A DNA stretch of 64,000 nucleotides from Paenibacillus sp. FSL H8-0548 (lineage in GTDB: Bacteria > Bacillota > Bacilli > Paenibacillales > Paenibacillaceae): assembly GCF_038630985.1 (NCBI RefSeq), contig NZ_CP152049.1, positions 5,476,501-5,540,500 of the forward strand. The letters are read 5' to 3'. Both the position numbers and the translations under genes were made by a program. Numbering within the stretch: the stretch's first letter is position 1; the number at the start of each line of letters is the position of its first letter. The notes beneath the pieces were generated by a model. It saw only the letters and a list, made by a program, of their open reading frames with translations, did no database searches and was not told the DNA's origin. Below are positions 39,699 to 63,316 of this stretch, piece by piece.

Positions 39699-39727
39699 AT
39701 GGCAGCCCCCCATTTCATTTTGACCAT

Positions 39728-39846
39728 AAAAAAAGGAGACTCAGCTTTAAAAAAAGCCAAATCTCCGGTTGTCCGGTCGTTTAATTCCGATTATATTGAG
39801 TTGCATACTATGAATTAATAATAGTACGATACCTTTTCTTTGTCAA
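39728..39846 (-). promoter_or_regulatory. ACCGGA-repeat leader 1: promoter, direct repeat and terminator
   Basis: TTGACA (39846-39841), 17 bp, TATTAT (39823-39818). The repeat ACCGGACAACCGGAGA occupies 39777-39762. GGAGA then pairs with TCTCC, with an inner GGCTTT/AAAGCT, and seven T end the terminator, about 30 bp before the LLM start. ATAATCGGAATTAA and ATAGTATG lie in the leader before the repeat. Confidence 0.75.
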
Positions 39847-39872
39847 TGGATTCGCTTGGGATCGCTCTCCAT

Positions 39873-40628
39873 TTATTTCAAATCAAAGCCTTGCCCTGTT
39901 AGGAAATCATGCAAATGACCGCGCAGCCGATTCGAACTGAATCTTCTCAGCATTTCAAGAGACCATTTTGTCTCCTTCTCACCACTTTTGGCTTCGCCCT
40001 TGCGGGAAGCATAATATACACGAGTGACATCGTCATACGCATGTATTTCTTTTTCTAGACTCCTCGCATCTTTATAAACCTCTTTGTGGTAAACAGCTTC
40101 AAGCGGCAATCGCGGCCGGATATCGGGCTCTTGATCAGGCACGCCAACGCACATGCCGAAGACTGGATAAACAAGCGGCGGCAGATTCAGCAAATCTGTA
40201 ACTCCCTGCGGATTATTGCGAATACCGCCGATATAGACCATTCCGTAGCCAAGCGACTCCGCTGCAATGGCCGCGTTTTGAGCAGCTAGTGTCGCATCGA
40301 TCGTGCCTAGAAGAAACAACTCAACGTTTTGATGCAGCTGGATATTCTCGTGTAAATTTGTCGCAATATGAATTTTATTCAAATCTGCGCACCACACGAG
40401 AAATACTGGACTTTCAACGATTTGCTGCTGGTTTCCTGCAAGCTCCGCTAATTGTCGTTTCCGCTCCGGATCAGTAACGGCGATTACGCTGTATGCTTGA
40501 ATATTCGAGGAGGTGGAGGCCGCTTGGCCCGCCAGCAGTATTTGCTCCAATTCCTGATCAGGAATTGGAGTCGGCTTGTATTTACGAATTGAGCGATGCT
40601 TTTTTAATAATTCAATTACCTCGTTCAT
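39873..40628 (-). CDS. NfsA-type nitroreductase / NADPH-flavin oxidoreductase
   Basis: 251 residues. The nitroreductase start motif HRSIRKYKPTPIP and the FMN contacts AASTSSNIQAYSVI are clear, followed by GYGMVYIGGIRNNP and the long C-terminal arm typical of NfsA/FRP proteins. These enzymes use NADPH to reduce FMN, quinones or nitro compounds. Given the four flavin monooxygenases nearby, supply of reduced FMN is an attractive role. It has its own copy of the ACCGGA-repeat leader. Confidence 0.9.
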   Translation of the reverse strand: MNEVIELLKKHRSIRKYKPTPIPDQELEQILLAGQAASTSSNIQAYSVIAVTDPERKRQLAELAGNQQQIVESPVFLVWCADLNKIHIATNLHENIQLHQNVELFLLGTIDATLAAQNAAIAAESLGYGMVYIGGIRNNPQGVTDLLNLPPLVYPVFGMCVGVPDQEPDIRPRLPLEAVYHKEVYKDARSLEKEIHAYDDVTRVYYASRKGEAKSGEKETKWSLEMLRRFSSNRLRGHLHDFLTGQGFDLK

Positions 40629-40664
40629 GTGTTCATCCCCTTAGTTTGTTTCAATTTTTAAAAC

Positions 40665-40788
40665 AAAAAACCGGAGACACAGCTAACTGTTATCTCCGGT
40701 CGTCCGGTAGAAACTAAATTCCTATTATTCTAAGAGATTTAGTGAGAAATATCATGAAAAATTTATCATGAACTAATTTATTTGTCAA
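40665..40788 (-). promoter_or_regulatory. ACCGGA-repeat leader 2: promoter, direct repeat and terminator
   Basis: TTGACA (40788-40783), 17 bp, TAAATT (40765-40760). The repeat ACCGGACGACCGGAGA occupies 40708-40693. ACCGGAGA pairs with TCTCCGGT, extended by AACAG/CTGT, then TTTTTT. ATAATAGGAATTTA precedes the repeat. The nitroreductase ATG follows about 40 bp after the terminator. Confidence 0.75.
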
Positions 40789-40852
40789 TATTTCTTCAGC
40801 CTCTATTTGCTCATCGAGCCTTTAGTCGATTAAAAGTAAAAATTAAAAAGCG

Positions 40853-40880
40853 TTGCTTTCCACACTTTTCCCAGTATAAT
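40853..40880 (+). promoter_or_regulatory. Promoter of the FAD-dependent oxidoreductase gene
   Basis: TTGCTT (40853-40858), 16 bp, TATAAT (40875-40880), about 44 bp before the start codon. Confidence 0.55.
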
Positions 40881-40923
40881 ACTCGGTATAAAACGATTCT
40901 CAAAATGTTTGGAGGAAAAAACA

Positions 40924-42075: not shown

Positions 42076-42095
42076 TCGGCTTGCTCTTGTTCTTG
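42049..42095. terminator. Bidirectional hairpin overlapping the end of the FAD gene
   Basis: CAAGAACAAGAGCAAGC pairs with GCTTGCTCTTGTTCTTG, about 17 bp, with the stop codon in the loop. It can end the plus-strand transcript. Confidence 0.7.
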
Positions 42096-42140
42096 CTTTA
42101 GCCAAGGCAGCGTTCCAACGCCATAAAACAACACAGCACA

Positions 42141-42177
42141 AAGCAAAGGGGCCGCATCATTCGCTGCACCTTTGCTT
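42141..42177 (-). terminator. Hairpin after the second binding-lipoprotein gene
   Basis: AAGCAAAGG pairs with CCTTTGCTT across a 19-base interior, 15 bp past the stop at 42192. No long T-run. Confidence 0.5.
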
Positions 42178-42191
42178 GAATCCGCTTATGC

Positions 42192-43577: not shown

Positions 43578-43627
43578 GTCCGTTTCTCTCCCTTTAATTA
43601 CGCCTTCTATTCGAAGCTTATTTTGTT

Positions 43628-44950: not shown

Positions 44951-44975
44951 ATTCATTCCCCTTCCAACTGTTTAC

Positions 44976-46340: not shown

Positions 46341-46399
46341 TAGATACCCTCTCATTTCTATTCGTTAGTGTTGTCATATGACTAGATCTGCTAGATCTG

Positions 46400-47716: not shown

Positions 47717-47750
47717 TATAGATGCACCTCTTTTTTATTTTTATTGGTAT

Positions 47751-47886
47751 ATAAGTTGAACTAGAAATTTACGTTTTGGGCGCTGCGCAAGAAGATCATT
47801 CTGAATGGCTGCAAAGGCGAACACCTCGTTTCTAGAGAAACGATCTTCTCGCTTCGCTATAACTTCATTCTCCAAGTCCAGCTTAT
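47751..47886. repeat. Hairpin repeat, copy C (internally deleted, 136 bp)
   Basis: The ends TATAAGTTGAAC and the diverged GTCCAGCTTATA are kept, with AAGAAGATCATTCT and AACGATCTTCTCGC arms, but the central part is about 50 bp shorter than in the other copies. It lies within the LLM operon. Its right end overlaps the stop codon of the 47883 gene. Confidence 0.82.
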
Positions 47887-49190
47887 ACAGTTATTGCGTT
47901 CAATGGACGAGCAAGCCCCAAGTTTCCTCGCAGTGTCGATTCCTCGTAAGCGGTACGGAACAAGCCGCGATTTTGCAGCTCTGGAATAACCTTCTCTACG
48001 AAGCGTTCCAAGCCGCTTGGGTATATTTGCGGCATGATATTAAATCCGTCGGCTGCACCGTTGCGAAACCATTTCTCAATCACATCGGCTAGCTGCAGCG
48101 GTGTTCCCGTAAAGGTGAAATGTCCGCGCGCACCTGCCAGACGGTTAATTAATTGCCGCAGCGTCGGTTTTTCCCGCTCCACTAAATCCAAAATAAGCTG
48201 ATGGCGGCTCTTCATCCCGCTTACTTGCTCCGTAGTCTGCGCCCCATCCAAATTCACTAGATCGTCCAAGGCATGATTGGATAAATCAATACCAAGGCGG
48301 GAGGAAAGCCGCTTAGCTGCTCCCTCATGATCGATAAGCGCGAACAGCTCCGCTTCTATGTCCTGAGCTTCTGCTTCTGTATCCGCCAATATTGGGCTTA
48401 AGCCGGGCAATATTTTCAATTGCTCCGGTGTCCGTCCAAACTTAGCCAATCGGCCTTTCACATCGGTGTAAAAGGAGCGTGCTTCTTCAAACGTCAGCTG
48501 CGCAGTGAAGATAACCTCGGCTAGCTTTGCAGCAAAATCCTTCCCTGTCTCTGAGGAGCCTGCCTGAACAAGCACGGGATAGCCCTGTGGCGGACGAGCA
48601 ATATTCAGCGGTCCTTGAACGGTGTAATGCTTTCCTGCAAAGCCGATTTTATGGACCTTGGCTGGGTCGATAAGAAGATCATTTATTTTGTCATTTCGTA
48701 CCGCGTCATCCTCCCAGCTATCCCACAGCCGCTTAACCACCTCAACGAATTCCTCAGCCGATTCATAGCGCTCATGATGCTCGGGATGCTTGCTCCTGCT
48801 GAACTGCTCTGCAGCTGGCCCGGCACCCGTAACGATATTCCAGCCGGCCCTGCCTTTACTGATATGATCCAGAGACGCAAACTTTCGAGCAATATGAAAA
48901 GGCTCATTGTATGTCGTCTCAACCGTTGCGATCAACCCGATATGCTTCGTGGCTGCCGCCAGTGCCGACAGCAGCGTGAAAGGCTCTAGCGAGCCTGAAT
49001 GCGCCCAATACCCATCAGCTAAAAATACCGAATCCAGCAATCCTCTTTCAGCAATTTGCGTTATCTTTACATAATGATTGATATCCACGCCTAGCTCTGG
49101 CTTAGTATCCGCATGCCTCCACGATGCTTCGTGATGGCCTGATGCTGCCAGAAAAGCATTCAAGTTAAGCTTTCGTTCCGATCCACTCAT
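47883..49190 (-). CDS. LLM-class flavin-dependent monooxygenase (NtaA/SnaA/DszA branch)
   Basis: 435 residues: LNLNAFLAASGHHEASWRHAD, FLADGYWAHSG, VTGAGPAAEQFSRSKHPEHHERY and EKVIPELQNRGLFRTAYEESTLRGNLG. A GGGGGGG site precedes the ATG. First gene of the operon under leader 3. Its TAA stop lies in the last bases of the hairpin repeat, so the natural C-terminus was probably altered by that insertion. Closest paralogue is 43628-44950. Confidence 0.92.
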   Translation of the reverse strand: MSGSERKLNLNAFLAASGHHEASWRHADTKPELGVDINHYVKITQIAERGLLDSVFLADGYWAHSGSLEPFTLLSALAAATKHIGLIATVETTYNEPFHIARKFASLDHISKGRAGWNIVTGAGPAAEQFSRSKHPEHHERYESAEEFVEVVKRLWDSWEDDAVRNDKINDLLIDPAKVHKIGFAGKHYTVQGPLNIARPPQGYPVLVQAGSSETGKDFAAKLAEVIFTAQLTFEEARSFYTDVKGRLAKFGRTPEQLKILPGLSPILADTEAEAQDIEAELFALIDHEGAAKRLSSRLGIDLSNHALDDLVNLDGAQTTEQVSGMKSRHQLILDLVEREKPTLRQLINRLAGARGHFTFTGTPLQLADVIEKWFRNGAADGFNIMPQIYPSGLERFVEKVIPELQNRGLFRTAYEESTLRGNLGLARPLNAITV

Positions 49191-49217
49191 CGTTGAATCC
49201 CCCCCAACTTATATTTC

Positions 49218-49346
49218 AAAAAAAATAACCAGAGATGCCCTTAGGCAATCTCCGGTTATCCGGTCGATCATTACATACTATTCATATCAAATTAGATGGA
49301 ATTAGTTCTGTGAAAATAATTTACCACTCGACTTCCTATATGTCAA
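49218..49346 (-). promoter_or_regulatory. ACCGGA-repeat leader 3: promoter, direct repeat and terminator
   Basis: TTGACA (49346-49341), 17 bp, TAAATT (49323-49318). The repeat ACCGGATAACCGGAGA occupies 49264-49249. AACCGGAGATTGCC pairs with GGCATCTCTGGTT, with eight T after it. AATAGTATG and an inverted TGGAATTA lie in the leader before the repeat. The LLM ATG follows about 28 bp after the T-run. Confidence 0.78.
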
Positions 49347-49367
49347 TCATTTTAAACAATGCGGGAA

Positions 49368-50342
49368 TTACTCTACCAAGCCGGTTCGTTCCACTCCTTC
49401 AATAAACCAGCGCTGAGCAAACAAATAAACGACGAGCAGCGGCATAATAATTAAGAACGAAGCAGCCATTTTGATCGCCTCCGCATACACCGTTATTTCC
49501 CCGGCTCCCTCAGCAAGCTTCATCTCGCCGGCCATTCTAGCCAGCGTAATCGATAAGGGAACATTCTCAGCCGTAAACATGAACAGCGATGGAAAATAGA
49601 AATCGTTCCAGTTCCATACGAACGAGAACAGCACAACGACAACGGTAGCCGAGCGGGAGATCGGAAACATGACTCGAAAAAACATCCGGAAGGGCCCCGC
49701 GCCATCCATTCTTGCCGCCTCGTCAAGCTCCTTCGGCAGTGTGGAATAAAAGGAGCGATAAATAATAACAAACATTGCGCCCTTCAAGCCATGGCCGAAT
49801 ATCGCAGGCACGACCATCGGCAAAAAGGTGTTCAACCAGCCAAACTCCTTAAACAGCATAATTGACGGCAAAATCGTAATTTGCGGAGGCATAATAAACG
49901 TAAATAACAGCAGCGCTCCCCATACCTTTTTGAATGGAAAATCAAGCCTCGCAAATGCATAACCAGCGATTGCACAAGAAAACACTTGCAGCACAGCCAC
50001 TGAGGATGCGAGTGATATGCTAATAAGAAAGCTCTTGCCGTAGTTCAGCATTTCGCTCGCCTGCTGCAGATGTCCGAGAAAGATCGTTCTCGGCACCCAA
50101 ATAACGGTGGGGTCAAGAATATTTTGGGCATCCTTCACCATTGTCGTCACCATATAAAGAATGGGCTTAATATAAATAAAAGCGACATTGATCAGGATCA
50201 CATAAACAAACAGCTTAAAGAGCAGACCCTTATCAATCTCGGCGCCTAGGAGCCGATACCGCAATACTTCAAGCCCATTCCTCAGCCTATGGTCAGCATA
50301 AAGCCTCGCCGCTGTTTCACTGCCTCTTTTGACTATTTTCAC
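49368..50342 (-). CDS. Sugar ABC permease, MalG-type (second pair)
   Basis: 324 residues from a GTG read from 50342, with GAGGTG upstream. An extended N-terminus of about 45 residues precedes six helices. The EAA loop reads LPKELDEAARMDGAGPFRMFFRVMFP. It is the last gene of an eight-gene operon and partners the permease at 50366. No terminator is visible before the leader-3 promoter of the next operon, 22 bp past its stop. Confidence 0.9.
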   Translation of the reverse strand: MKIVKRGSETAARLYADHRLRNGLEVLRYRLLGAEIDKGLLFKLFVYVILINVAFIYIKPILYMVTTMVKDAQNILDPTVIWVPRTIFLGHLQQASEMLNYGKSFLISISLASSVAVLQVFSCAIAGYAFARLDFPFKKVWGALLLFTFIMPPQITILPSIMLFKEFGWLNTFLPMVVPAIFGHGLKGAMFVIIYRSFYSTLPKELDEAARMDGAGPFRMFFRVMFPISRSATVVVVLFSFVWNWNDFYFPSLFMFTAENVPLSITLARMAGEMKLAEGAGEITVYAEAIKMAASFLIIMPLLVVYLFAQRWFIEGVERTGLVE

Positions 50343-50365
50343 CTTAGCTCACCTCTCTTTCCTAT

Positions 50366-51232: not shown

Positions 51233-53499
51233 GGCGTCGTTCCTCCTTTAATGACCACAAAGTCTTTTGCCGGAACAAATACGCCATCCTTGTTATAATC
51301 CGTCTCATTATAATTGACGACAATCCGATAGCTGCTGCCAAATACCGTTTCCTTTACCTGAGGCGCAAGCGTGCGATGAGCGGTTATGAATTGATCCTGA
51401 ACAGCGGCTAGCGCAGCATTGGCCTTGGTATATTCTTCAGTTAGATCGTCGATCCAATCCTTGTAATTTAGACTGTAGTGCCATAACGAATACGACTTTT
51501 TCAAATCATCCGCATGATTACCGCTAAGCACGTATGCCGGGTATGCGCCATACTCAATGCTCCGCAAAAACTCATCCTCATATTCATCGCGCAAATTCGA
51601 CCATTCCAGCGTATACGTGCGTAAGCCATGAAGCACGATTTGGACAAAAGGTATCTCCTCGCTAATAAATACATCATACGAATAGTCATCCGTTAATCGA
51701 TGAATATGATCAAGCTCATTTAGCGCGTAGAAATTTACGTTGTTCGCTACAAGCGAGCCCAGCGATTTTTTGCTATTCTCAAGTATACTGCGCTGCACCT
51801 CTACAACATCCGCTCTGCTGGCTTGATAGCGGCTGTTGAAATCGGTATTGACCTGCTGCCCGATGCCATCCTCAAAATAGATGCCGTCTGCACCTAAGCT
51901 CTTATAGTCATTTAAGTCTCTAGCAACAACCTTCTCATAAAATTTAGGGCTCACAAATACAGCAGCATCCTGATCCTGATTTTCCTGCTCCTCCAGCACT
52001 GTGCCAGCCAAATTGCGCAAGCCGTCGCGCCGCCACCAGAACCGATCATCGCCATTCGTATTCAGTGTATAGTTGGCGGTCAAATAAACGGGAATTTGAA
52101 GCGCATGGGCAAATGAAATGAAGCTTTTCATCCCGCTATCCCCTCCTATACGCTTATCTACAGGAAAATAGCCGCCATGTGTGCTGTAGCCATCCTGCTG
52201 CCAGCCCGAGAAATGAATTTGCAAATGATGAATCCCTTTGCTGTAAATTTCCCCAACCAGCTCTGCTGCCTCATCAGTCGTGGTTGCTTTCAAGTAAGAA
52301 TCGGAAAACAATCCCTTCTCAATATCAGCACCTACCAAATCAAGGAACAAGGGAATATCTTTCTCAGTCGCTTCCAGCGGCTTCACGCCCTGCTCGTTTA
52401 TTAAATAATTACGGTATACCTCAGCCATTCCTACATAATTGCTCTTCTCCGGCAGCAGCGGATAATAGCGTGTGGCGCGCGCATCAGCCAAAAACTTATC
52501 CCCGCTGTACGTATAGAAGCCCTCGCCCGTACTTTTACTGACGCTCTGGAAGAACCGTTTGCGATACTGCCATTCGGTCGTCGTCCAGTTCGACTGTCCT
52601 ACCGCGCCTGAAGGCGCCGCATAAACGTTCGCGAACGCTTCCCCTTGCGAGATAATCGCAACAAACGCTTGATCGCCTGACTTTATTCCGTATACTGGCA
52701 TAGCAATTCTCTGCCTGCCCGTATTTTCGTTATAGTAGGATAGATCCTGCCCGTATACGCTCTCGTTATAGGTCAACTGCTGCATCAAACGATCACTCTT
52801 GAAATGAATGAGCGAGCCTGAGCCATCCGGCAATAAAATATACCCTTCCTGCCCGACAGACGGCTGGGCGCCAAACAATGGATACAGCTTAACATTAAGC
52901 AGGCTTAAAGCGCCCTCCACGATTTCAGCGTCGATGATTCTCGTCTCCACATAATCCTTATGCAGACTTACCTCGATTGGAATCTTAATCTCTACCTTCG
53001 GCAGTACAAAGGTGACCTTAAATCCCGCATTCGTATTCTGAAAGTTTTCCAGATAGCCTTGGCTCTCAATTAGGCTTGTCGTAGCCGAGGAGGATTTATA
53101 GTTTTTGGCATTGACGTATTCCACCATAACCGGAGAAGACAAATTATTTTTCCAAGTTGCCGGCACTGTCTCTTCCTGCCAATATTTTGGGTCTGGATAG
53201 GAGCGCCAAATGCTGCCCGTTTCCTTGTTCATGACCTGAAAATGAGCACTTGTCTTGTCAGCGAACAGCCTCAAGGTATCCGTCTCTGCCACTAGCTCAA
53301 AGCGCTCCTCGGCTGGCAGTCCTTCCTTATACAGGCTAGCTCCATTTGCTTCGAACTTGCCTGTGTCATTTGCCGGCTTTACCACTTGTTTGTTCCAAAG
53401 ACCTCCTACCACAAGAGAGACCCAGCCTATCAAGGCTAGCAAAATAACGATGAGCACCAGCTTCGTGATGCGCTTATAGTTAAGTTTGACGGTAGTCAT
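51229..53499 (-). CDS. DUF5696 protein, membrane-anchored
   Basis: 756 residues. One N-terminal membrane helix (about 13-34) and no lipobox, so it is anchored with the bulk outside. The extracellular part has a beta-rich region (about 60-330, with YILLPDGSGSLIHF) and a barrel-like region (about 390-690, with HLQIHFSGWQQDGYSTHGGYFP and GADGIYFEDGIGQQ). That layout is reminiscent of glycoside hydrolases, but function is unknown. DUF5696 proteins are usually found with sugar ABC permeases in Paenibacillus-like genomes, as here. Coupled by overlaps to genes on both sides. Confidence 0.85.
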   Translation of the reverse strand: MTTVKLNYKRITKLVLIVILLALIGWVSLVVGGLWNKQVVKPANDTGKFEANGASLYKEGLPAEERFELVAETDTLRLFADKTSAHFQVMNKETGSIWRSYPDPKYWQEETVPATWKNNLSSPVMVEYVNAKNYKSSSATTSLIESQGYLENFQNTNAGFKVTFVLPKVEIKIPIEVSLHKDYVETRIIDAEIVEGALSLLNVKLYPLFGAQPSVGQEGYILLPDGSGSLIHFKSDRLMQQLTYNESVYGQDLSYYNENTGRQRIAMPVYGIKSGDQAFVAIISQGEAFANVYAAPSGAVGQSNWTTTEWQYRKRFFQSVSKSTGEGFYTYSGDKFLADARATRYYPLLPEKSNYVGMAEVYRNYLINEQGVKPLEATEKDIPLFLDLVGADIEKGLFSDSYLKATTTDEAAELVGEIYSKGIHHLQIHFSGWQQDGYSTHGGYFPVDKRIGGDSGMKSFISFAHALQIPVYLTANYTLNTNGDDRFWWRRDGLRNLAGTVLEEQENQDQDAAVFVSPKFYEKVVARDLNDYKSLGADGIYFEDGIGQQVNTDFNSRYQASRADVVEVQRSILENSKKSLGSLVANNVNFYALNELDHIHRLTDDYSYDVFISEEIPFVQIVLHGLRTYTLEWSNLRDEYEDEFLRSIEYGAYPAYVLSGNHADDLKKSYSLWHYSLNYKDWIDDLTEEYTKANAALAAVQDQFITAHRTLAPQVKETVFGSSYRIVVNYNETDYNKDGVFVPAKDFVVIKGGTTP

Positions 53500-55649
53500 C
53501 GGATAATCACCTCCTGGTACAAGGAATTAATAAAGTTGACGAATTCAATGCTTAGACTAATGAGGATGAAAATTAAAATGACAATGATCGTAAGCGCAAG
53601 CAGCGATAACAGAATAATAAAGATCGCTTCAATAAACGTATAATTGTGTATCCCCTGAACCATCCATATCAGCAGCAGCACCGTCCACAAGACGATAAAC
53701 AGCTTCAAGAACTGAAAGATGGCTGCCTCATTCAACGTTAATACATTGGAAATTAGAGTAACAGGTATTCCTATGAGAATAATCGGAAATAAGGCGTAGG
53801 CACTGCTGTAAAATACATCTTTGAAGCGTCCTTCGCCTCTGAGCAGCGAGCTGATCAAATAGTTGGAAACGACCCACCCAAGCCAGATCCCTACGAATTG
53901 TACCGAAATCGGCAGCAAATCAATACCGACATGTACCGCTGGATTAAAAATAAAGCTAGTGCCCGCTTGCATATACAAATACGATGCCACCGCTAGCACG
54001 AATATAATCAAGCTGCTTAGGAAGCCCGCTTTGTTCTCATAGCGAATCGCATAAAAGCCGTCCACCGGATGCTTGATCAAATAAAACACATGCTTAAGCT
54101 GCTGAAGCAGCAAGGGAAGCTTTCGAGTTTTGGCGCTTGGCTTTTTCTTCAGACGATGCTTTTTGGACAGCGTATTCCATAGCAGATATAAAGCACTGAA
54201 CGCAATCGCAATGTTCATCAACAAACCAAAATGGCTTTGAAACCATTTTAATCGATTTTGCCAGAAGGAGTCTGAATAGCCGTTCACGACACCCGCCTGA
54301 TAAAACAGCTTCTCCGCTTTAGCATAATCCTCTTTCTTATAGGCCGCCTTTGCCAGTCCAATCAAGGCCGGTGTGTACTGAGTATTCAAACGATGGACCT
54401 CGTTCCACAAGGGCTCACTTTGCTCGTATCTGCCCTCCTGCGTCAATTGATTTGCCTCATGCACCAGCTTGCCGAATTGCGATAAGCGCAGCACCTGAAC
54501 GAGGTTGTTGACGCTGTCGAGCACCAGCAGCTCGCCCTTCGAATTGCTTGCAATGGCCGCTGGCGTCTTAACGACGCCCGTTTTCGAGGTGGCGGTAATG
54601 ACATCGCCTCCCCAGAAAAACAGCAGATTTCCATTCAAATCATATTGGCTAATAATATTCCACACGGAATCAATGATCGTGATATTGCCAGCGAGGTCGA
54701 CCGTGATGTCATTCAGCTGGGGACTAATGTCCCGCTGCGTATAATAAAAAAACTCGCCATAGGATTTGACTGGCTGCAGCGCTGCAAACTCCCCCTTGCC
54801 CGGCAGCTGATCGAGGCCTGCAATATTAAGCTTCTTAACCTGGTCCGTCTGCACTTCCTTGGTCACTGTATAAATAAAGCCATTCTGGTCTATCGTCGAA
54901 TTCGCGATAGCTCCAGGCAGCTTCCTCAGCTCTCTTTGATACATTTCCCGGGTATACACAAACCGTTTAAACGCATCGAATAAAGAGAACGACACTTTAT
55001 TCGGTCCAAAGAAGCTGACGAAGCTGCCTTCGGGATCAAGCTGCACTAAGCCCTGATAAGCGCCCAGCGTTGTGACATAAATAAATCCACGTTTATCAAC
55101 AATCAGATTAACCGGATCGTATTTGAAGTCTGCGGGCAAATAGCTGGACTCAGGACGGCCAAATGACTTCAACAGCTTACCGGATGAATCGAGCCTAACC
55201 ACCCTATTGTTGCCCGTATCCGCAACATAAACCTCTCCTGCTTTGTCGACGTATACGCCGCTTGGCTTCTTAAGCGGGCTCTCGCTTACTATGATTTCAC
55301 GTACATATTGTCCTTTTTCATCTAAGTGAACGATCCGATTATTCCCTGTATCTGCAATATAAATGTGATCCTTCTCATCCACAAAAATATCCTTGGGCAG
55401 ATTTAGCTGCAGCTTAGATGCTCCCTCAGCGCTAGTTAGCTCACTTGCTTCAGCAGTGAGCACATTCGTGCCGATAATGCCAGCAGGAATGTAAGCTGCT
55501 TGCGTCTTCACCAGCTGTCCGAATCCATCCTTATAGTAGGTTTCATACGGTAACTGTGAGGCTGCAGCCTGTAAACTGGGCCACGCTATGTAAATCGCCG
55601 TAATCAGGACAATGATGACCGGACGAATCCGCAGCCTCCTGTTCTTCAC
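53496..55649 (-). CDS. NHL-propeller protein with C-terminal Yip1-like membrane domain
   Basis: 717 residues. A signal or anchor helix at about 9-29 is followed by NHL-type repeats (PKDIFVDEKDHIYIADTGNNRIVHLD, then PSGVYVDKAGEVYVADTGNNRVVRLD, and more to about 390). A short TPR-like helical stretch (about 400-460), a membrane helix, and a five-helix Yip1-like domain (about 515-710) follow. An extracellular propeller joined to a membrane domain suggests a sensor or scaffold for glycan binding. It sits between the two permease pairs, overlapping DUF5696 (ATGA). No known catalytic residues. Confidence 0.85.
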   Translation of the reverse strand: MKNRRLRIRPVIIVLITAIYIAWPSLQAAASQLPYETYYKDGFGQLVKTQAAYIPAGIIGTNVLTAEASELTSAEGASKLQLNLPKDIFVDEKDHIYIADTGNNRIVHLDEKGQYVREIIVSESPLKKPSGVYVDKAGEVYVADTGNNRVVRLDSSGKLLKSFGRPESSYLPADFKYDPVNLIVDKRGFIYVTTLGAYQGLVQLDPEGSFVSFFGPNKVSFSLFDAFKRFVYTREMYQRELRKLPGAIANSTIDQNGFIYTVTKEVQTDQVKKLNIAGLDQLPGKGEFAALQPVKSYGEFFYYTQRDISPQLNDITVDLAGNITIIDSVWNIISQYDLNGNLLFFWGGDVITATSKTGVVKTPAAIASNSKGELLVLDSVNNLVQVLRLSQFGKLVHEANQLTQEGRYEQSEPLWNEVHRLNTQYTPALIGLAKAAYKKEDYAKAEKLFYQAGVVNGYSDSFWQNRLKWFQSHFGLLMNIAIAFSALYLLWNTLSKKHRLKKKPSAKTRKLPLLLQQLKHVFYLIKHPVDGFYAIRYENKAGFLSSLIIFVLAVASYLYMQAGTSFIFNPAVHVGIDLLPISVQFVGIWLGWVVSNYLISSLLRGEGRFKDVFYSSAYALFPIILIGIPVTLISNVLTLNEAAIFQFLKLFIVLWTVLLLIWMVQGIHNYTFIEAIFIILLSLLALTIIVILIFILISLSIEFVNFINSLYQEVIIR

Positions 55650-55665
55650 TCGATTCCCCCCTTAT

Positions 55666-56514
55666 TTATTTAATGCCTGAATGTGCCATAGTAGAGATGA
55701 CCTTTCCTTGTAAAATAATAAAGAAAACTAAATTCGGCACGAGCATAATTAATGCCGCCACTGCCGCGGCGCCCTGCCGCGCCACATTATTCGCCAAATT
55801 ATTCGTCAGTGTTGATAAGAAAAACGGAAAGTTTTTCATTTCATCATCCTGCATGAACAGCATCGACGTCTCTACGTTGCCCCATGAATTTTGAAAGGAC
55901 AAAATAGCGACTGTCGCAATTGCCGGCATACACATTGGAATAATAATGCGAAAAAAAACGATAAACTCATTTGCCCCGTCAATTCTGGAAGCCTCCAGCA
56001 GCGAGTCTGGAATTTGGTCTACGAATTGCTTGAGCAGGAAGACACCTACCGGCAAAGCGAGCACCGGCAGCAAATGACCCAAATACGTATTCATAATGCC
56101 TAACTGGCTGACGACCAAATAACGCGGAATTTGGATGACCTCCGGCGTGAACATCAGCATAAGCAGAATCACAGCAAAAATAAACTTTCGCCCTGGAAAA
56201 GGATGCTTGGAGAGCGGATAAGCGCACAGTGCACTCACAGCGGTTACGCCAATAACGCTCGCTGCCGAAATGAACAGGCTGTTGAACAAATAACGAGATA
56301 CCGGAACGATCGAATTTGAGGTTACCCAAAATAACTCGACGAAGTTCTGAATATTCGGCTCCTGCACAAAAAACTTTGGCGGATAAATAAACAATTCGTG
56401 ATAAGGCTTAAACGCATGATTGAAAATGTAAATGATCGGAAGGATCATAACGACGGACAACACAAGCATGATGATATTGAAGCTAATTTTTGCAGCAAGG
56501 CTAGATGGTTTCAG
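55666..56514 (-). CDS. Sugar ABC permease, MalG-type (first pair), likely CTG start
   Basis: About 283 residues if translation starts at CTG read from 56514. That codon has AAGGAGG 8 bp upstream and gives a normal permease N-terminus (KPSSLAAKISFNII then the first helix). The first ATG in frame, at 56469, lies inside the first helix and has no ribosome site. The EAA loop reads IPDSLLEASRIDGANEFIVFFRIIIP. Stop of the partner permease is 3 bp upstream. Confidence 0.85.
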   Translation of the reverse strand: MKPSSLAAKISFNIIMLVLSVVMILPIIYIFNHAFKPYHELFIYPPKFFVQEPNIQNFVELFWVTSNSIVPVSRYLFNSLFISAASVIGVTAVSALCAYPLSKHPFPGRKFIFAVILLMLMFTPEVIQIPRYLVVSQLGIMNTYLGHLLPVLALPVGVFLLKQFVDQIPDSLLEASRIDGANEFIVFFRIIIPMCMPAIATVAILSFQNSWGNVETSMLFMQDDEMKNFPFFLSTLTNNLANNVARQGAAAVAALIMLVPNLVFFIILQGKVISTMAHSGIK

Positions 56515-56517
56515 GTG

Positions 56518-57414
56518 TTATTCCTCCTTCGTACCGAACAATCCCCAGCTAAGCTTGTTCGCAAAATACATTAATATAAGAAGAAACACGGAAATCGTCG
56601 CCGCATAGCCCATTTCAAAACGGATAAACCCATAATCGTTAATATGATTAACGATTAGGTGGCCTGCATATTCCGGCGTTGGGTTTTGACCGGAAAGCTC
56701 GACTCCGATTGCTCCTGTCTTAAAGGTCGTGACGATTGCCATGACAGCACCGAACAGCATTTGCGGCTTCATAGACGGTATCGTGATGAACCACAGCTCT
56801 TGCAAATTATTTTTGATGCCGTCAATTTTCCCCGCTTCGTAAAGCGTCGTATCCACGTTCAGAATACCCGCAAGCATAGCCAGAAAACCTACGCCCATAC
56901 TGGACCATAACGTTACAACGATCATCGAGTTCATTAGCAAATCCGGACTGGTTACCCACAGCTTTGGAATGTCAATGAAGCCGATTTTTAATAGGAAGCT
57001 GTTCAAATAACCGATTCTATCGCCCGAAAGCAATGGCAGCCATATGATCGTCATCGCGATTCCAACAGTGAGAGACGGTGTATACATCGCGAGCGCCACC
57101 CATTTGCGAAAGCTGCCGCGCAGCTTGGAAATGAGCCAAGCGAGCAGAAAGGCGGCTGCATAACCGCCCGGTCCCACAATAATCGCAAATTTGAACGTAT
57201 TCGGCAGCGCGTATTTTAAAAACAACAAATCCTGCGCAATCAAATATTGAAAGTTGCTCCAGCCTATAAACCGCGGCGGCTCAATTCCGTTATAGTACGT
57301 GAAGCTTAAGCCAACCGCAGCCACTATCGGAATAACAATAAATAAAGCAAAACAAATTAAGAAAGGAGCAATAAACAAATAGGAGATCCGAAACGACCAC
57401 AGCCTACTCCACAT
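56518..57414 (-). CDS. Sugar ABC permease, MalF-type (first pair)
   Basis: About 299 residues from the ATG read from 57414 with AAGGGA upstream; it overlaps the end of the binding-protein gene by 11 bp. Six helices and the EAA loop TTLYEAGKIDGIKNNLQELWFITIP. Pairs with the permease at 55666. Confidence 0.9.
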   Translation of the reverse strand: MWSRLWSFRISYLFIAPFLICFALFIVIPIVAAVGLSFTYYNGIEPPRFIGWSNFQYLIAQDLLFLKYALPNTFKFAIIVGPGGYAAAFLLAWLISKLRGSFRKWVALAMYTPSLTVGIAMTIIWLPLLSGDRIGYLNSFLLKIGFIDIPKLWVTSPDLLMNSMIVVTLWSSMGVGFLAMLAGILNVDTTLYEAGKIDGIKNNLQELWFITIPSMKPQMLFGAVMAIVTTFKTGAIGVELSGQNPTPEYAGHLIVNHINDYGFIRFEMGYAATISVFLLILMYFANKLSWGLFGTKEE

Positions 57415-60361
57415 AACGATCAATCCCTTCCCAAGGCTGATCGACAATTGGAATATTGAGCGTTTTGAGCGGCTTGCCCTGTGCATCAACAAAGCCGAAT
57501 TCCTGTTGTTTTCTCAGCAGTTCCCGGTTAATATCTCTTACCGCTTCCTCTAACGAGGACATATAGTTTGTCGTCCTGACAACGGATCTGATCCACGCAT
57601 TATTCGTCTCGCGCTCGAGGAAATAGCCACCCGGCACATTCGGAATATCCTTATACCATTTCCACTGGTTCAAAATAATTTGAGCATCCTCCTTCTTCCA
57701 AGGAAGATTATTAAATGCCTCTACATTCGATGTATTCCAGCGAAATGCTACGCCATTAACTGCCTCAAGATCGGAGCCGTACTGCTCCTGAACTTCAGCA
57801 GAGAGCCACCATTTCAGAAACTCCCAAGCCTCTGTCTTTTTATCCGATTTGTCAAAAATAACACCTGTACGCTGTCCCCCTCCAGCCCAGCGGCTGATCG
57901 TTCCGTCCGCTTGCTCCGTACCGGGTATAAGCGCAATGCCCCATCGGCCATTCAGCTCAGGCGCCGCTGCCGACAGTTGAACGTACATATTGTAATCCGA
58001 TATGCCTATCGGCATCGTACCGGTACGGAAATGCTGATAGAAGCTTGGCACCTCGCGCTCCACGGCGTAGGTGTTGAACAAATCGGTCCACTGCTTAAAG
58101 GCACGGTATGCTTCCGGTGTATCAAGCCCTGACTTCAAACCGCCCTGCTCATAAAAGTCCACTCCGTTCTGATAGAAGAAGTGGGTGAACTCCTTCGGGT
58201 TCACGTAGAAGTTCATAAAGTTTTGCTGCAGCGTAGGCAGCAAATTGTATACATCATCCCATGTCTGCGGAACGTCAGCCCCTAAGCGCTGCAAAATATC
58301 CTTTCTATAATAGAGCACTTGAAATGACTGCGTCTCCGGCACGCCGTAGTAGCCTCCATCATAATGAAGCGGCAGCCAAGAGCCTGGGCTAAACCTCGGA
58401 TAAAGCTGATCAAAATCTTCAAATTCGGCTAGATTTTGCAGCGTGCCGCGGATGGCGTAATCAACCGGCAAATCCTGCGTCAAGCCAAGCGCAATATCAG
58501 GCTGTACGCCTGCCGCATTAGACATGAGCAGCAGCTCGGGGTTAGGCAGCAGATTAACCTTCACTTCAATGCCCGTTTCCGGCGTAAACGACTCATCTGC
58601 GATTTGCTGCAGCTGATCGACATAATCCCGGCCACGCTGCACCCATATATTCAGCTTCGTATTATCCATATCATTCAGACTATCCCTTGCGTCAAACGAG
58701 TAGATAAAGTTTTCAGCGCCGCCCCACAAACGGCTGAAGAAAGCTGCTTCCATCTTAGGGGCATCTGCCTTCTCCGGAATAATATAAATCTCATCGAGCT
58801 GCAGTGATTGCTTGATCAGCGTATCGATAAAGGTTCCAAACTTCTCTCTCATCGATGATATTTCTTCCACCTGATAAGGAATCTCCTCTGGCTTCCTAAG
58901 CAAGGAGCGCAAATCCTTCGCTGAGGTATCCAGTCCTTGACTAATGGAATCCTTATTGCCATTCGCTTTGACGAGCCGCTCAGATAAATCATCCATCACA
59001 TCAGCTGCCAGTGCCATTTGCTCAGTCAAGCCAGGAAAATCCTGTTCCATATTCCAAGAACGGTTGCGGTCGATCATCTTCTTCGTGCTTGCGCCCGTAA
59101 TTGTGCGCAAATCCCAATCAATCGCATCCAGATGGGCAATCAGCTTCTCCAGATCGACGTTAATCGATTTGATAGGCGACTGTGTAACGGCAAGCGATAA
59201 TGTATGCTGTCCTTTCTCCAGCTTTAGGAGATAAGGCTCTTTGCTTGCATCCTGCAAAATCGTCCCTTTCCAGCCCGTTGAATAAGGAAAGCCATAGGCA
59301 AGAAATTCCTTAAAGGGCACTTCACCGTCGATTTTGATCGCTCGATAGGATGTTTTTTGCGCGATCGTATTTTGCAGAGCACGAAAGCCAATTTTGTAAA
59401 GCCCCGTCTCCGGTACATCAAACGACCATGTGATTTCCTGGTTTTGCTCCAGCCAACGCGGGCCGCCAACCGTATTGTACTTGATCCTTCCGGTATAACG
59501 CGGCAGGGTACGGGAATTTTTGTCCGAGAACAGCTTAATTGCCGTATCATTCTTAGATGCAAACTCCTCAGCCTGCAGCGTCAATATCTCCCCATCGATC
59601 GCAGACACATCGGAATTCTGCTTTGCAGCCTCCGAGTAAGCTGGAATCGTTTTGCTTGGAGCAAGCACAATTTTCTCCAGCGCCACAGGATCAAACCCTT
59701 GCAAGCGAATGGTATGCGTTCCTTGTGTGAAATGCCATTGCAAAGGCTGCGCATATGCCCCCCCTGAATCAATCAGAGGTTCTGTACTCCAGCCCGAAGC
59801 ATCAATGGACCGAGGCCGAATCTCATCACCGTCTGAGTTTTTCAGAATAGGACGGACATCCTCCCATTTGCGGTATAACGAAATAGAGGAAGCTTCTCGG
59901 AATGGTCTCTTGCCGTCTATAGTAACCTCCCATCCAATCGGTCCCTTTCTACCCACATCCTTCAGCGGGTGATAAGAAACCTCAATTTCATACAGCGCAC
60001 TCTCTGCAACGTCAACTTTATATTCCACCCACTCTGTGCTGCTCGTATTCCACAGCAGCACATTCAATTTCCCTTCATACTCCCCTACTTTAATTTCCTC
60101 CGTGTTCGAAACTAGAGCAGGCTCTGCCGCTTCAATGGGTATCGATTGCGTTGCATTCTGAATCCCCTGCTCCCGCCACGACGCCAGCACTTCACTAAAG
60201 TAGGGATCTGTCTCGTAATTAAACGTCGTAATAAGCTCATCATAATTAACCGTTACGCTATTCTTCGCGGATTCAGCGCTCCCTGCAGCTCCAGCTGAGA
60301 ATAGCAGAGCCGCGATTGCAATACTTCCCCCAAGCAAAAACCAATTCCGTTTCTTATTCAT
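57404..60361 (-). CDS. Large extracellular sugar-binding protein with N-terminal beta-sandwich modules, no lipobox
   Basis: About 985 residues from the ATG read from 60361. Signal-like start NWFLLGGSIAIAALLFSAGAAGSA with no Cys, so it is cleaved and released or kept by an uncleaved helix. Two beta-sandwich regions like CBM6/35 modules follow (about 60-260 and 270-420; HTIRLQGFDPVALEKIVLAP), then a helical region (about 420-560), then a family-1 solute-binding domain (about 590-985) with VLYYRKDILQRLGADVPQTWDDV and a C-terminal NINRELLRK-type helix. The fusion would let one protein hold a polysaccharide and pass fragments to the importer. Overlaps the UgpC-like gene region by close spacing. 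Confidence 0.85.
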   Translation of the reverse strand: MNKKRNWFLLGGSIAIAALLFSAGAAGSAESAKNSVTVNYDELITTFNYETDPYFSEVLASWREQGIQNATQSIPIEAAEPALVSNTEEIKVGEYEGKLNVLLWNTSSTEWVEYKVDVAESALYEIEVSYHPLKDVGRKGPIGWEVTIDGKRPFREASSISLYRKWEDVRPILKNSDGDEIRPRSIDASGWSTEPLIDSGGAYAQPLQWHFTQGTHTIRLQGFDPVALEKIVLAPSKTIPAYSEAAKQNSDVSAIDGEILTLQAEEFASKNDTAIKLFSDKNSRTLPRYTGRIKYNTVGGPRWLEQNQEITWSFDVPETGLYKIGFRALQNTIAQKTSYRAIKIDGEVPFKEFLAYGFPYSTGWKGTILQDASKEPYLLKLEKGQHTLSLAVTQSPIKSINVDLEKLIAHLDAIDWDLRTITGASTKKMIDRNRSWNMEQDFPGLTEQMALAADVMDDLSERLVKANGNKDSISQGLDTSAKDLRSLLRKPEEIPYQVEEISSMREKFGTFIDTLIKQSLQLDEIYIIPEKADAPKMEAAFFSRLWGGAENFIYSFDARDSLNDMDNTKLNIWVQRGRDYVDQLQQIADESFTPETGIEVKVNLLPNPELLLMSNAAGVQPDIALGLTQDLPVDYAIRGTLQNLAEFEDFDQLYPRFSPGSWLPLHYDGGYYGVPETQSFQVLYYRKDILQRLGADVPQTWDDVYNLLPTLQQNFMNFYVNPKEFTHFFYQNGVDFYEQGGLKSGLDTPEAYRAFKQWTDLFNTYAVEREVPSFYQHFRTGTMPIGISDYNMYVQLSAAAPELNGRWGIALIPGTEQADGTISRWAGGGQRTGVIFDKSDKKTEAWEFLKWWLSAEVQEQYGSDLEAVNGVAFRWNTSNVEAFNNLPWKKEDAQIILNQWKWYKDIPNVPGGYFLERETNNAWIRSVVRTTNYMSSLEEAVRDINRELLRKQQEFGFVDAQGKPLKTLNIPIVDQPWEGIDRYVE

Positions 60362-60389
60362 AACGAGAAGCTGCCTCCCTCCTTCGCAT

Positions 60390-61508
60390 CTATCCAATCA
60401 TTTCCGTAAATCTTACTCCGGTATCCTTATGAAAAAAATGAGCCTTGGACATATCCAGCTCAACCTTCACCTTCTCCTGCTCAGAGAAACGATTATCAGG
60501 GTCCACGCGTGCAATTAACGGCTTTTCCTGCCCGATATCCAAATAAAGAAAACGATCCGCACCCATTAGCTCATTCGCTAGATAGATTCCAGTTATAATC
60601 GTCTCGGAAAATAGTCCTTCGAGCTTAACGTTCTCCGGCCTTATACCCAATATAACCGATTTACTTACTTGGTTATTATGACGCAAAATTTCCTCCATGG
60701 CTTCATTGATCTTCAAGCTAAAGCGATTCGTATGAAACTCCAATTTCCCTTGAGCTGTCTCCTGAATACGACCATTAATAAAATTGATCTGTGGAGAGCC
60801 GATAAAGCTGGCTACAAAAGTATTCGCCGGTTTGGAATAAATAATTTCCGGTGTATCGCACTGCTGTATGACGCCGCCCTTCATAACGACGATACGGTCA
60901 GCCATCGTCATCGCTTCAACCTGATCATGCGTAACGAAAATAAAGGTCGTGCCGAGCTTTTTGTGAAGCTTCGTAATTTCCATTCGCATCGTTACTCTAA
61001 GCTTGGCATCCAGATTAGAAAGCGGCTCATCCATCAAGAACAGCTTTGGATCACGTACGATAGCCCGGCCAAGCGCCACACGCTGACGCTGTCCGCCCGA
61101 CAGCTCCCTTGGCTTACGATTGAGGTAAGGCTCGATTTCCAAAACTCTGCTTGCATTTTTAACTGCCAAATCAATCTCATGCTTAGGCAGCTTCCGCATC
61201 CGCAGACCAAATGCAATATTTTCGTACACGCTCAGATTAGGATAAAGCGCATAGTTTTGGAACACCATGGAAATATCTCGATCCTTGGGAGGCAGCTTAT
61301 TAACCAGCTGATCTCCAATATAGATCTCTCCCTCCGAAATATCCTCAAGTCCTGCAATCATTCTAAGTGTCGTTGATTTGCCGCAGCCGGAAGGCCCTAC
61401 AAAAACGATAAACTCCTTATCCTTGATTTCCAGCTGAAAGTCCTGCACGACCGCGTGCTTATCTTTTCCATAGCGCTTATATAAATGATTGATCGTAACA
61501 CCCGCCAC
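60390..61508 (-). CDS. ugpC: Sugar-importer ABC ATPase, MsmX/UgpC type
   Basis: 372 residues, GTG start read from 61508. Walker A GPSGCGKST, signature LSGGQRQRVALGRA, Walker B LFLMDEPLSNLDAKLR, THDQ switch, and a C-terminal MOBE/TOBE domain (ILGIRPENVKLEG...) as in MalK-like subunits. It should energise the permeases of this operon and, like MsmX, could also serve the mannosidase-operon importer, which lacks an ATPase. First gene of the eight-gene operon; only a terminator and no clear promoter lie between it and the aldo-keto reductase. Confidence 0.93.
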   Translation of the reverse strand: MAGVTINHLYKRYGKDKHAVVQDFQLEIKDKEFIVFVGPSGCGKSTTLRMIAGLEDISEGEIYIGDQLVNKLPPKDRDISMVFQNYALYPNLSVYENIAFGLRMRKLPKHEIDLAVKNASRVLEIEPYLNRKPRELSGGQRQRVALGRAIVRDPKLFLMDEPLSNLDAKLRVTMRMEITKLHKKLGTTFIFVTHDQVEAMTMADRIVVMKGGVIQQCDTPEIIYSKPANTFVASFIGSPQINFINGRIQETAQGKLEFHTNRFSLKINEAMEEILRHNNQVSKSVILGIRPENVKLEGLFSETIITGIYLANELMGADRFLYLDIGQEKPLIARVDPDNRFSEQEKVKVELDMSKAHFFHKDTGVRFTEMIG

Positions 61509-61536
61509 AATACGCCCCCCTATTCAAAAAGAATCT

Positions 61537-61579
61537 CAAAAAAATGGGGATATCCGATGACGCTCTGATATCCCCCATT
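61537..61579 (-). terminator. Terminator between aldo-keto reductase and sugar operon
   Basis: AATGGGGGATATC pairs with GATATCCCCATT (one bulged base), followed by seven T on the minus strand, about 30 bp past the stop at 61609. Confidence 0.8.
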
Positions 61580-61608
61580 GATACCGTCAAATGTATGAGG
61601 CTGATCGA

Positions 61609-62577
61609 TTAGCTGAATACGGACTCTTTCGCTGGCTGCAGCTGCGCGAGAGCTTCATCTACTTTCGCCAGCTCTTCCGCACTTAACCTCTCATGCCAGC
61701 TCTTTGCTGCTTCCGTTATATGCTCCGGCTTCGATGCTCCCAGAATAGCGGATGTAATCCCGGGACGACTTAGCACCCAAGCTAACGCATATTGTGCCTG
61801 AGTGAGCCCACGCTCCTCCGCCAGCGGCCGGATAGCTTCCGCCAATGCAATCGCATTTTTCTTTAACAGCGCCTCCAGCCGTTGTTCGCCTGCCGCAAGC
61901 CGCGAGCCCTCTGGAGGCGCTTCTCCAGCGCGGTACTTGCCTGAAAGAATGCCTCTGCCTAGCGGACTGTACACGATAACGCCAACATTCTCCGACTGTA
62001 CAAAAGGTATAATTTCCTTCTCAATCTCACGGGAGATCAAGCTGTATTCCGGCTGCAGACTTTCAAATCGATGCAGGTTATGCAATGCGCTGACGCCATG
62101 AGCTTTTGCCAGCTGCCATGCAGCAAAGTTTGATGCGCCTATGTACCTTACTTTGCCTTGACGAACCAGATCGTCTAATGCTCGGAGCGTTTCTTCGAGC
62201 GGAGTATTCGAATCAAAGCGATGAACCTGATATAGATCCAAATAGTCTGTCTGGAGCCGCTTCAAACTATCTTCAACCGCTTTGAAAATATGATAGCGGC
62301 TTTGCCCTGAATCATTGACGCCTTCTCCCACTCGGCCGTGTACTTTAGTTGCAAGAACAATTTGCTGACGTCTCTCCTTCAGCAAATTGCCAAGAATTCG
62401 CTCAGATGCTCCCTCTCCGTAGACGTTGGCTGTATCCACAAGATTAATGCCGTTATCGAGCGCTAAATCCAAAATGGTTGACGAAGCCTTCTCATCAATC
62501 CACCGTCCAAATGCCATTGTGCCTAGACTCACCTCAGAAACCTTCAATCCTGTTCTTCCCAATTTTCTATATTCCAT
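61609..62577 (-). CDS. Aldo-keto reductase
   Basis: 322 residues. Asp48 and Tyr53 in DTANVYGEGASE, Lys in LATKVHGR and His in YQVHRFDSN give the catalytic set; the cofactor end has SAILGASKPEHI. Clearly paralogous to 37302-38276. It stands alone under leader 4 and before a terminator. Reduction of an aldehyde produced by an LLM enzyme is inferred. Confidence 0.92.
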   Translation of the reverse strand: MEYRKLGRTGLKVSEVSLGTMAFGRWIDEKASSTILDLALDNGINLVDTANVYGEGASERILGNLLKERRQQIVLATKVHGRVGEGVNDSGQSRYHIFKAVEDSLKRLQTDYLDLYQVHRFDSNTPLEETLRALDDLVRQGKVRYIGASNFAAWQLAKAHGVSALHNLHRFESLQPEYSLISREIEKEIIPFVQSENVGVIVYSPLGRGILSGKYRAGEAPPEGSRLAAGEQRLEALLKKNAIALAEAIRPLAEERGLTQAQYALAWVLSRPGITSAILGASKPEHITEAAKSWHERLSAEELAKVDEALAQLQPAKESVFS

Positions 62578-62612
62578 TTTCGTCGCCCCCTAAATTTAGT
62601 TTCATTAAAGAC

Positions 62613-62725
62613 AAAAAACCGAAGACACTGTATTCCAAAGTGTCTCCGGTTTTCCGGTAGATATAATAGTATTCGCATTAAAATAGTATGTTTATTATCA
62701 TAAGACTGCTGCAGTACTCTGTCAA
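62613..62725 (-). promoter_or_regulatory. ACCGGA-repeat leader 4: promoter, direct repeat and terminator
   Basis: TTGACA (62725-62720), 17 bp, TATGAT (62702-62697). The repeat ACCGGAAAACCGGAGA occupies 62658-62643. ACCGGAGACACT pairs with AGTGTCTTCGGT, followed by TTTTTT. CATACTATT and AATACTATT lie in the leader before the repeat. The aldo-keto reductase ATG is about 35 bp further on. Confidence 0.78.
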
Positions 62726-63247: not shown

Positions 63248-63316
63248 AATCAACACCCTCTCAAAAGTAATGTGTACAACAACTACAAAGCGGCTTCTAA
63301 ATTTTTCGATTTCTAG

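Follow-up and report, generated by a model that had tools for sequence, protein, structure and literature searches.

The stretch of DNA analysed here (64,000 nucleotides (nt) of Paenibacillus sp. FSL H8-0548, NZ_CP152049.1 positions 5,476,501-5,540,500, called the window below) carries on its minus strand four leaders built around the sequence ACCGGA-NN-ACCGGAGA. These leaders are probably attenuators of a sulfur-starvation regulon, in which a small antiterminator hairpin, similar to the ribonucleic antiterminator (RAT), precedes and overlaps a terminator and is probably bound by YezD, a protein of the DUF2292 family. From the sequences, control of readthrough by the hairpin is very likely, and YezD is a reasonably likely binder of it.

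The four leaders had been picked out in an earlier inspection of the letters (the sequence-only reading), and all of them are present where it placed them, with TTGACA starting at 39846, 40788, 49346 and 62725 of the minus strand. The layout that it described is also as measured: the spacer from TTGACA to the -10 box (TATTAT, TAAATT, TAAATT and TATGAT, respectively) is exactly 17 base pairs (bp) in 4/4 leaders, and the repeat begins 40, 51, 53 and 38 nt behind the -10 box. The features are listed here in window coordinates, with scores from a covariance model, R1, which was built from 33 sequences and has all four window sites in its training set.

62640..62663, minus strand: element hairpin 1, before aldo/keto reductase and ATP-binding cassette (ABC) genes; R1 26.2 bits, E 3.5e-6 in the window
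62613..62649, minus strand: terminator using the 3' strand of hairpin 1 (sequence and fold)
62697..62725, minus strand: promoter-like TTGACA-17-TATGAT (sequence)
49246..49269, minus strand: element hairpin 2, before NtaA/DmoA monooxygenase genes; R1 29.7 bits, E 2.2e-7
49218..49255, minus strand: terminator using the 3' strand of hairpin 2 (sequence and fold)
49318..49346, minus strand: promoter-like TTGACA-17-TAAATT (sequence)
40690..40713, minus strand: element hairpin 3, before a nitroreductase gene; R1 25.0 bits, E 9.3e-6
40665..40699, minus strand: terminator using the 3' strand of hairpin 3 (sequence and fold)
40760..40788, minus strand: promoter-like TTGACA-17-TAAATT (sequence)
39759..39782, minus strand: element hairpin 4, before NtaA/DmoA monooxygenase and aldo/keto reductase genes; R1 29.6 bits, E 2.3e-7
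39728..39766, minus strand: terminator using GGAGA of hairpin 4 (sequence and fold)
39818..39846, minus strand: promoter-like TTGACA-17-TATTAT (sequence)
39782..39808, minus strand: CymR-like operator between promoter and hairpin 4, with 3 mismatches to the consensus

The sequence ACCGGANNACCGGAGA, allowing up to two mismatches, occurs four times in the window against an expectation of 0.14, and none of 100 shuffled sequences contained four copies. The whole genome has one additional exact copy, which looks like coding sequence by eye and is not followed by a T-run. Across the genus, 12/51 genomes contain the motif with six T in the next 30 nt, compared with 0/51 for the reversed pattern. The small size of the element is the one feature that would suit plain terminators sharing a common spacer, whether by chance or as a functionless repeat family; given these counts and the covariation described below, that explanation can practically be dismissed.

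The motif had been read as a direct repeat. The repeat is real, but it is also an inverted repeat: because CCGG is its own reverse complement, the apparent direct repeat folds as a hairpin, of which the first unit is the 5' strand. The fold of ACCGGA-NN-ACCGGAGA is YYC-KA-[CCGG]-ANNA-[CCGG]-A-GRR, with its 3' strand in common with the terminator. In the R1 model all four window hairpins have a complete inner stem, and of the three modelled outer pairs, three are formed at 49249 (AUC/GAU) and two at each of 39762, 62643 and 40693. The structure derived from variants elsewhere consists of an outer stem GCY/GGC, an internal loop of GA opposite A, an inner stem of four pairs and a loop of ANNA or ANNNA. 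The hairpin is thus 21-22 nt in size, and the element 24 nt.

The hairpin is supported by compensatory changes across Bacillota, which establish it as a real structure at the sequence level. Inner stems of the types CCGG/CCGG, CCAG/CUGG, CUAG/CUAG, UCGG/CCGA and CUGG/CCAG all occur, so that the ACCGGA letters are not invariant as first thought; the loop base varies too, the orthologous 49249 leaders of six relatives reading ACCGGATAGCCGG, with one loop base changed. Covariation was measured on 34 distinct elements, which were chosen downstream of DUF2292 genes by their unpaired letters, in order to avoid circularity, and passed an additional letter filter, with chance matches kept. In these, 224/238 cells are paired (94%), 6/7 pairs show double changes, and 0/500 shuffles match the score. 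Without the pair set by the letter filter the count is 190/204, and slid registers of the alignment give a pairing of only 17-50%. The earlier proposal that the first unit is under selection is borne out, in that it forms the 5' strand of a covarying hairpin.

A regular expression that makes no demand on pairing gave 41 matches in 37 of the 87 DUF2292 loci with a recognised frame, and 29 of these matches pair at 4/4 positions, with six stem types. The structural motif was found 41 times, in 38 of 94 DUF2292 loci, whereas 20 shuffles gave 0.6 copies on average; as a looser comparison, 119 loci picked by motif letters gave 11 matches in 0.88 Mb. No copy of the structural motif was found in the 32 DUF2292 loci that came from the own-genome and own-family searches.

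It was considered whether ACCGGA-NN-ACCGGA could be a DNA operator for a transcription factor, placed over a terminator by chance. Its position 38-53 nt behind the -10 boxes of the window would suit an operator, as would the few copies (L372, L065) that have no evident terminator. The compensatory changes, however, include the asymmetric stems CCAG/CUGG and UCGG/CCGA, the motif overlaps the terminator, and numerous copies are located in the interval from yezD to the following gene. We therefore regard an operator as very improbable.

The overlap with the terminator was analysed by minimum-energy folding of 63 Paenibacillaceae sites, drawn from the window, 40 regions chosen by eye (see below), further regions and L029, all of which were retained only if a T-run followed. 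In 61/63 of these the terminator takes nucleotides of the hairpin 3' strand. Among 29 DUF2292-adjacent elements, 26 have a T-run, and in 19/26 the terminator again takes nucleotides of the 3' strand. At the sequence level these folds show the overlap directly and agree with the earlier suggestion of a strand switch acting on the second unit. The further statement that the terminator pairs with the second unit needs correction at 39762, where only GGAGA pairs with TCTCC, and not the whole unit. Given that the 3' strand of the hairpin is the start of the 5' arm of the terminator, the two structures compete. A promoter-like pair TTGAC-(17-19)-TANNNT is present in 44/63 leaders.

We propose the following mechanism. 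The nascent leader would first fold into the 21-22 nt hairpin, with its short outer stem, KA/A internal loop, 4-bp inner stem and ANNA/ANNNA loop. When sulfur is short, a factor would hold this hairpin, so that the polymerase reads through into organic-sulfur or sulfate genes; when sulfur is plentiful, the terminator would win. The factor is most probably YezD, and the signal could be the status of cysteine, O-acetylserine or S-adenosylmethionine (SAM). The sequence-only reading had suggested a protein or small molecule as the binder; the present results point to a protein, with YezD as the candidate.

The link to DUF2292 began with a Peptococcaceae contig on which the motif, with a terminator, immediately follows an open reading frame (ORF) that a Pfam search identified as DUF2292 (33.7 bits), with two more such genes in the genome. 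All three DUF2292 genes of this genome adjoin an element, near genes that by eye are CysK-, NifH-, NifB- and NifDK-like. The family is present in 28/149 genomes of the phylum sample, 81/200 of the window's class and 331/394 of its own family. From the phylum and class samples, 59 DUF2292 loci were fetched (L319 and L321 being own-family genomes by their coordinates), and 8/59 contain RCCGGANNRCCGGA, compared with none in 20 shuffles; in many others a variant stands behind the yezD stop codon. The element of L298, a variant, stands some 200 nt before the DUF2292 gene, and R1 does not report it at E 0.05. R1, applied to 62 DUF2292 loci of other samples, found the element 52 times in 45 loci (E<=0.05), and up to 29 of these matches are training sequences.

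In the class sample of 200 genomes, 81 have DUF2292, 76 have the element under stricter match filters and 73 have both. The element is thus found in 73/81 genomes with DUF2292 and in 3/119 without (p 3e-41). After removal of the training genomes the figures are 51/59 and 3/119, and with the own family also removed they are 37/44 and 3/118. Among the neighbours at the 30 best covariance-model loci DUF2292 ranks first, lying within about 1.5 kb in 23/30 (11/11 training and 12/19 non-training loci), while the next clusters are found at 10. The genes downstream of the element vary from locus to locus.

These results bear on a different explanation, namely that the RNA switch is real but that YezD is just a co-regulated sulfur protein, the hairpin being bound by a small metabolite or by some other factor of more general action. 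DUF2292 occurs in 331/394 family genomes, far exceeding the number with strict sites, and is frequently located at sulfate genes, so that its linkage to the element could follow from the pathway. On the other hand, co-occurrence in the class sample is near one to one, and DUF2292 is the most frequent neighbour while the downstream gene changes. With 21 nt and two or three free bases in its loop, the hairpin would also be small for an aptamer. We consider this explanation rather unlikely. Within Paenibacillaceae, the presence of DUF2292 was tried as a predictor of strict ACCGGA sites and rejected as uninformative, again because of its presence in 331/394 genomes; the strict letters are in any case the wrong yardstick, since other stems occur.

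Several observations weigh against YezD as the binder, or against the attenuator as a whole. R1 has no match at E<=0.05 in 17 of the 62 other DUF2292 loci, and in the class sample 8/81 DUF2292 genomes lack a match while 3/119 genomes without DUF2292 have one. The co-occurrence statistics ignore kinship, the genomes not being independent by descent, and the co-occurrence could come from a shared content of sulfate-assimilation genes. The 31 Paenibacillaceae DUF2292 loci gave no more than three R1 matches, all weak and the best with E 0.03, so that YezD would have to act in trans in this family. Some genes downstream of Paenibacillaceae sites are not evidently concerned with sulfur (an amidohydrolase, a LacI regulator, short-chain dehydrogenases, an SBP_bac_5 protein and a lyase). 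The best terminator fold misses the hairpin in 7/26 DUF2292-adjacent elements, and 3/29 have no T-run. The sulfate-operon copies L372 and L065 have no evident terminator, and since these are sulfate-transport leaders, the hairpin may act at another step too. For the protein itself, comparison of the YezD models with known folds gave no confident relative, and deletion of yezD is described as leaving the viability of B. subtilis in deep starvation unreduced (PMC6385201).

Pfam labels DUF2292 as uncharacterised, the scanned members match PF10055 as their only Pfam family, and in three papers B. subtilis yezD is listed as unknown or hypothetical (PMC6385201, PMC10714963, PMC3862929). The protein is about 60 residues long, with the consensus core YGSVxIxVHDGxIVQIERTEKxR. 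The predicted model has one helix and a β hairpin, with a mean predicted local distance difference test score of 78. A sequence search of the PDB gave 7awz (Scone-E) as the best match (E 1.2e-5), over 13 residues and with no stretch passing alone, and it was not trusted. Tandem proteins of 106-132 residues with two DUF2292 repeats exist in L322, L324, L325, L326, L328, L296 and L297, which suggests that the single-repeat protein works as a dimer. Binding of RNA by such a protein is plausible.

In S-box control, the downstream gene is made when SAM is low. An S-box SAM riboswitch (RF00162) is present in 8/20 loci chosen for the element. In each of the eight it precedes yezD in the same orientation, and the element follows yezD. 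The next gene after the element is CysH-like by eye in six of these loci.

L336, L337, L341, L343, L345, L346, L352 and L353, same strand: RF00162, then yezD, then the element (Rfam)

We infer a cascade in which low SAM would open yezD, and the element would gate the next gene. This arrangement is relevant to the possibility that YezD or another factor acts in the opposite sense, favouring the terminator and so stopping transcription when sulfur is plentiful. The direction of control is not readable from the sequence, and in the best folds of some elements hairpin and terminator coexist. In most elements, however, the overlap makes a full hairpin and a full terminator mutually exclusive, and by S-box logic YezD behind a SAM riboswitch would be made at low SAM, which fits an activator. 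Action in the opposite sense is accordingly judged improbable.

With YezD as an antiterminator, the arrangement would form a two-step attenuator, in which yezD is made at low SAM and YezD, together with a second signal, lets transcription pass the following terminator towards cysH or sulfate transport genes. The more general proposal is that DUF2292/YezD represents a novel family of very small antiterminators that bind RNA, and that through a dedicated hairpin they switch operons for sulfate and organosulfur use across Bacillota, with such a two-step attenuator behind the SAM riboswitch; it seems to us evenly balanced. If true, it would assign a function to a family of small proteins found in many of the sampled genomes (331/394 of the own family, 81/200 of the class), and would place a further layer of RNA-based control over sulfur metabolism in Bacillota, in addition to the S-box and T-box. 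It would also predict a sulfur regulon extending to uncharacterised operons, among them the window's cluster of aldo/keto reductase and carbohydrate-type ABC genes. With an element of 24 nt and a protein of about 60 residues, the claim is directly testable.

That the element extends far beyond Paenibacillus and marks a sulfur regulon is well supported. A looser pattern matched 106/394 family genomes, compared with 4 for the reversed pattern. Many of these matches look like chance or conserved coding sequence, and for this reason 40 regions with plausible terminators were picked by eye from the matches listed, so that their share is not a rate. Judged by Pfam searches of representatives, the genes behind Paenibacillaceae sites include TauD dioxygenases, sulfatases, an NMT1-type binding protein with an ABC ATPase, LysR regulators followed by SBP_bac_3 operons, HpaB-type flavin monooxygenases, flavin mononucleotide (FMN) reductases, a Cys/Met pyridoxal-phosphate enzyme with an NlpA-type ABC system and a luciferase-like monooxygenase, and SBP_bac_11 (sulfate-type) binding proteins. 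Copies elsewhere also precede sulfonate-ABC, Sat-like and CysH-like genes. Names of genes behind DUF2292-adjacent elements (Sat, CysH, SsuA, SsuE, NifH-, NifB- or NifDK-like, CysK and MetK), and in L368, L371, L372 and L374, were recognised by eye from the sequence. At the sequence level, the location at sulfur genes is evident from these assignments.

An exact scan of the genome collection gave at least 119 stretches, mostly chance by eye, and a first filter left two sites in L118 and one in L046. L029 and L052 carry terminators that this filter missed, and L065 has an element with no evident terminator. A relaxed pattern matched 7/149 genomes in the phylum sample of G394, none of them element-like by eye.

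Some individual loci are of interest. L318 has two tandem elements (335-358 and 440-463, minus strand) before a gene that is MetK-like by eye. In L356 (1699, 1842) and L359 (1686, 1842) a second element lies about 140-160 nt behind the first, with a CCAT/ATGG stem in L356. In L160 (9431-9446, genome G026) the element is directly behind yezD and before a PadR-ABC operon, and the sulfur cluster seen in relatives is apparently missing. In L296, L297 and L298 (G394) element and DUF2292 stand beside genes that by eye are NifH-, NifB- and NifDK-like; these could encode a methylthio-alkane reductase, and thus serve sulfur scavenging rather than nitrogen fixation, an idea taken from PMC12552129.

The genes of the window at or near the leaders are as follows.

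61609..62577, minus strand: aldo/keto reductase, first gene behind hairpin 1 (PF00248)
49368..61508, minus strand: carbohydrate-type ABC importer with a 997-residue substrate-binding protein, NHL/Yip1 and DUF5696 proteins (ORFs; Pfam for four proteins)
47883..49190, minus strand: NtaA/DmoA family FMN monooxygenase behind hairpin 2 (TIGR03860, 534 bits)
39873..40628, minus strand: oxygen-insensitive NADPH nitroreductase-like protein behind hairpin 3 (NF008033, 240.8 bits, cut-off 223)
38331..39713, minus strand: NtaA/DmoA family FMN monooxygenase behind hairpin 4 (TIGR03860, 513.6 bits)
63065..63256, minus strand: yezD (DUF2292), 63 residues, candidate RNA-binding partner, upstream of the 62643 site (PF10055, 44.3 bits, E 1.4e-10, cut-off 22)
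62747..63055, minus strand: 102-residue protein between yezD and the element (ORF; no Pfam family above cut-off)

The genes at 49368..61508 and the aldo/keto reductase possibly form one operon. To judge from their neighbours, the aldo/keto reductase and the nitroreductase would serve sulfur use. Several relatives have sites at equivalent positions in their orthologous cluster. A flavoprotein oxidoreductase (40909-42075, plus strand), divergent from the 40693 leader, is kept in the cluster without a good element of its own. The 102-residue protein was considered as a general trans factor and rejected, as it occurs in just 14/394 family genomes; a relative of it is found in L052, behind another element.

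In the genome of the window R1 gives seven matches with E<0.1, comprising the four window sites and three more. These are C1:397740, with a CCAG/CUGG stem, before SsuB- and SsuA-like (sulfonate-ABC-like) genes; C1:1628947, before an NtaA-like monooxygenase; and C1:5151262, at a sulfate-ABC-like operon. A weaker match at 864160 precedes an SsuD-like monooxygenase, and other equally weak matches are in unrelated places. The second DUF2292 gene of the genome is the last gene of a sulfate-ABC-like operon. The leader of this operon also carries an element, here with a spacer of 3 nt, and no terminator is evident there.

CymR and YtlI of B. subtilis act on the same class of target genes, but at the DNA level, by repression or activation, and would add to the RNA element. 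Measured against the CymR consensus, the 63 leaders have a mean best mismatch of 5.35 compared with 6.63 for shuffled sequences, and 15/63 have four mismatches or fewer. The three window leaders other than that of hairpin 4 have best mismatches of 5, 5 and 6, near the shuffled value of about 6. An Rrf2-type regulator gene, CymR-like by eye, is near the element in 7/30 best loci (L382, L388, L389, L390, L393, L394 and L403).

The sequence-only reading did not recognise the motif as a known riboswitch, and Rfam assigned no family to the element in the window or the loci scanned. At gathering scores there was no match in the window, S-box and T-box included; ten loci gave one unrelated small RNA and one tRNA; and in the 20 chosen loci the S-boxes lay away from the element, a single microRNA match was due to chance, and no T-box was found. 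No description of the element was found in literature on the motif, CymR, the cysH leader and small-protein antitermination, where subscription papers were mostly outside coverage and an earlier description is possible. Naville and Gautheret 2010 (PMC2965389) predict a bacilli attenuator common to a sulfonate ABC operon and an unknown gene, and this may be the same element.

The cysteine T-box also places a leader terminator at cysteine genes (PMC2940859), but has no match in the window or loci scanned. The S-box (RF00162) likewise terminates transcription in leaders of Bacillota sulfur genes, and the present element is far smaller. ANTAR targets have two hairpins with hexanucleotide loops, in contrast to the single hairpin with a 4-5 nt loop found here. 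The closest likeness is to RAT, a short hairpin whose internal loop is asymmetric and whose 3' strand is partly shared with the terminator; a protein that holds it causes readthrough, the regulator gene sometimes being in the operon. The RAT hairpins bound by BglG, LicT and SacY, regulators carrying a CAT RNA-binding domain, similarly overlap the 5' arm of the terminator, as seen here in 61/63 and 19/26 folds. They are about 30 nt long with two internal loops, whereas this element has 21-22 nt and one internal loop; and they control sugar genes, whereas here the genes are those of sulfur metabolism and the candidate protein is DUF2292.

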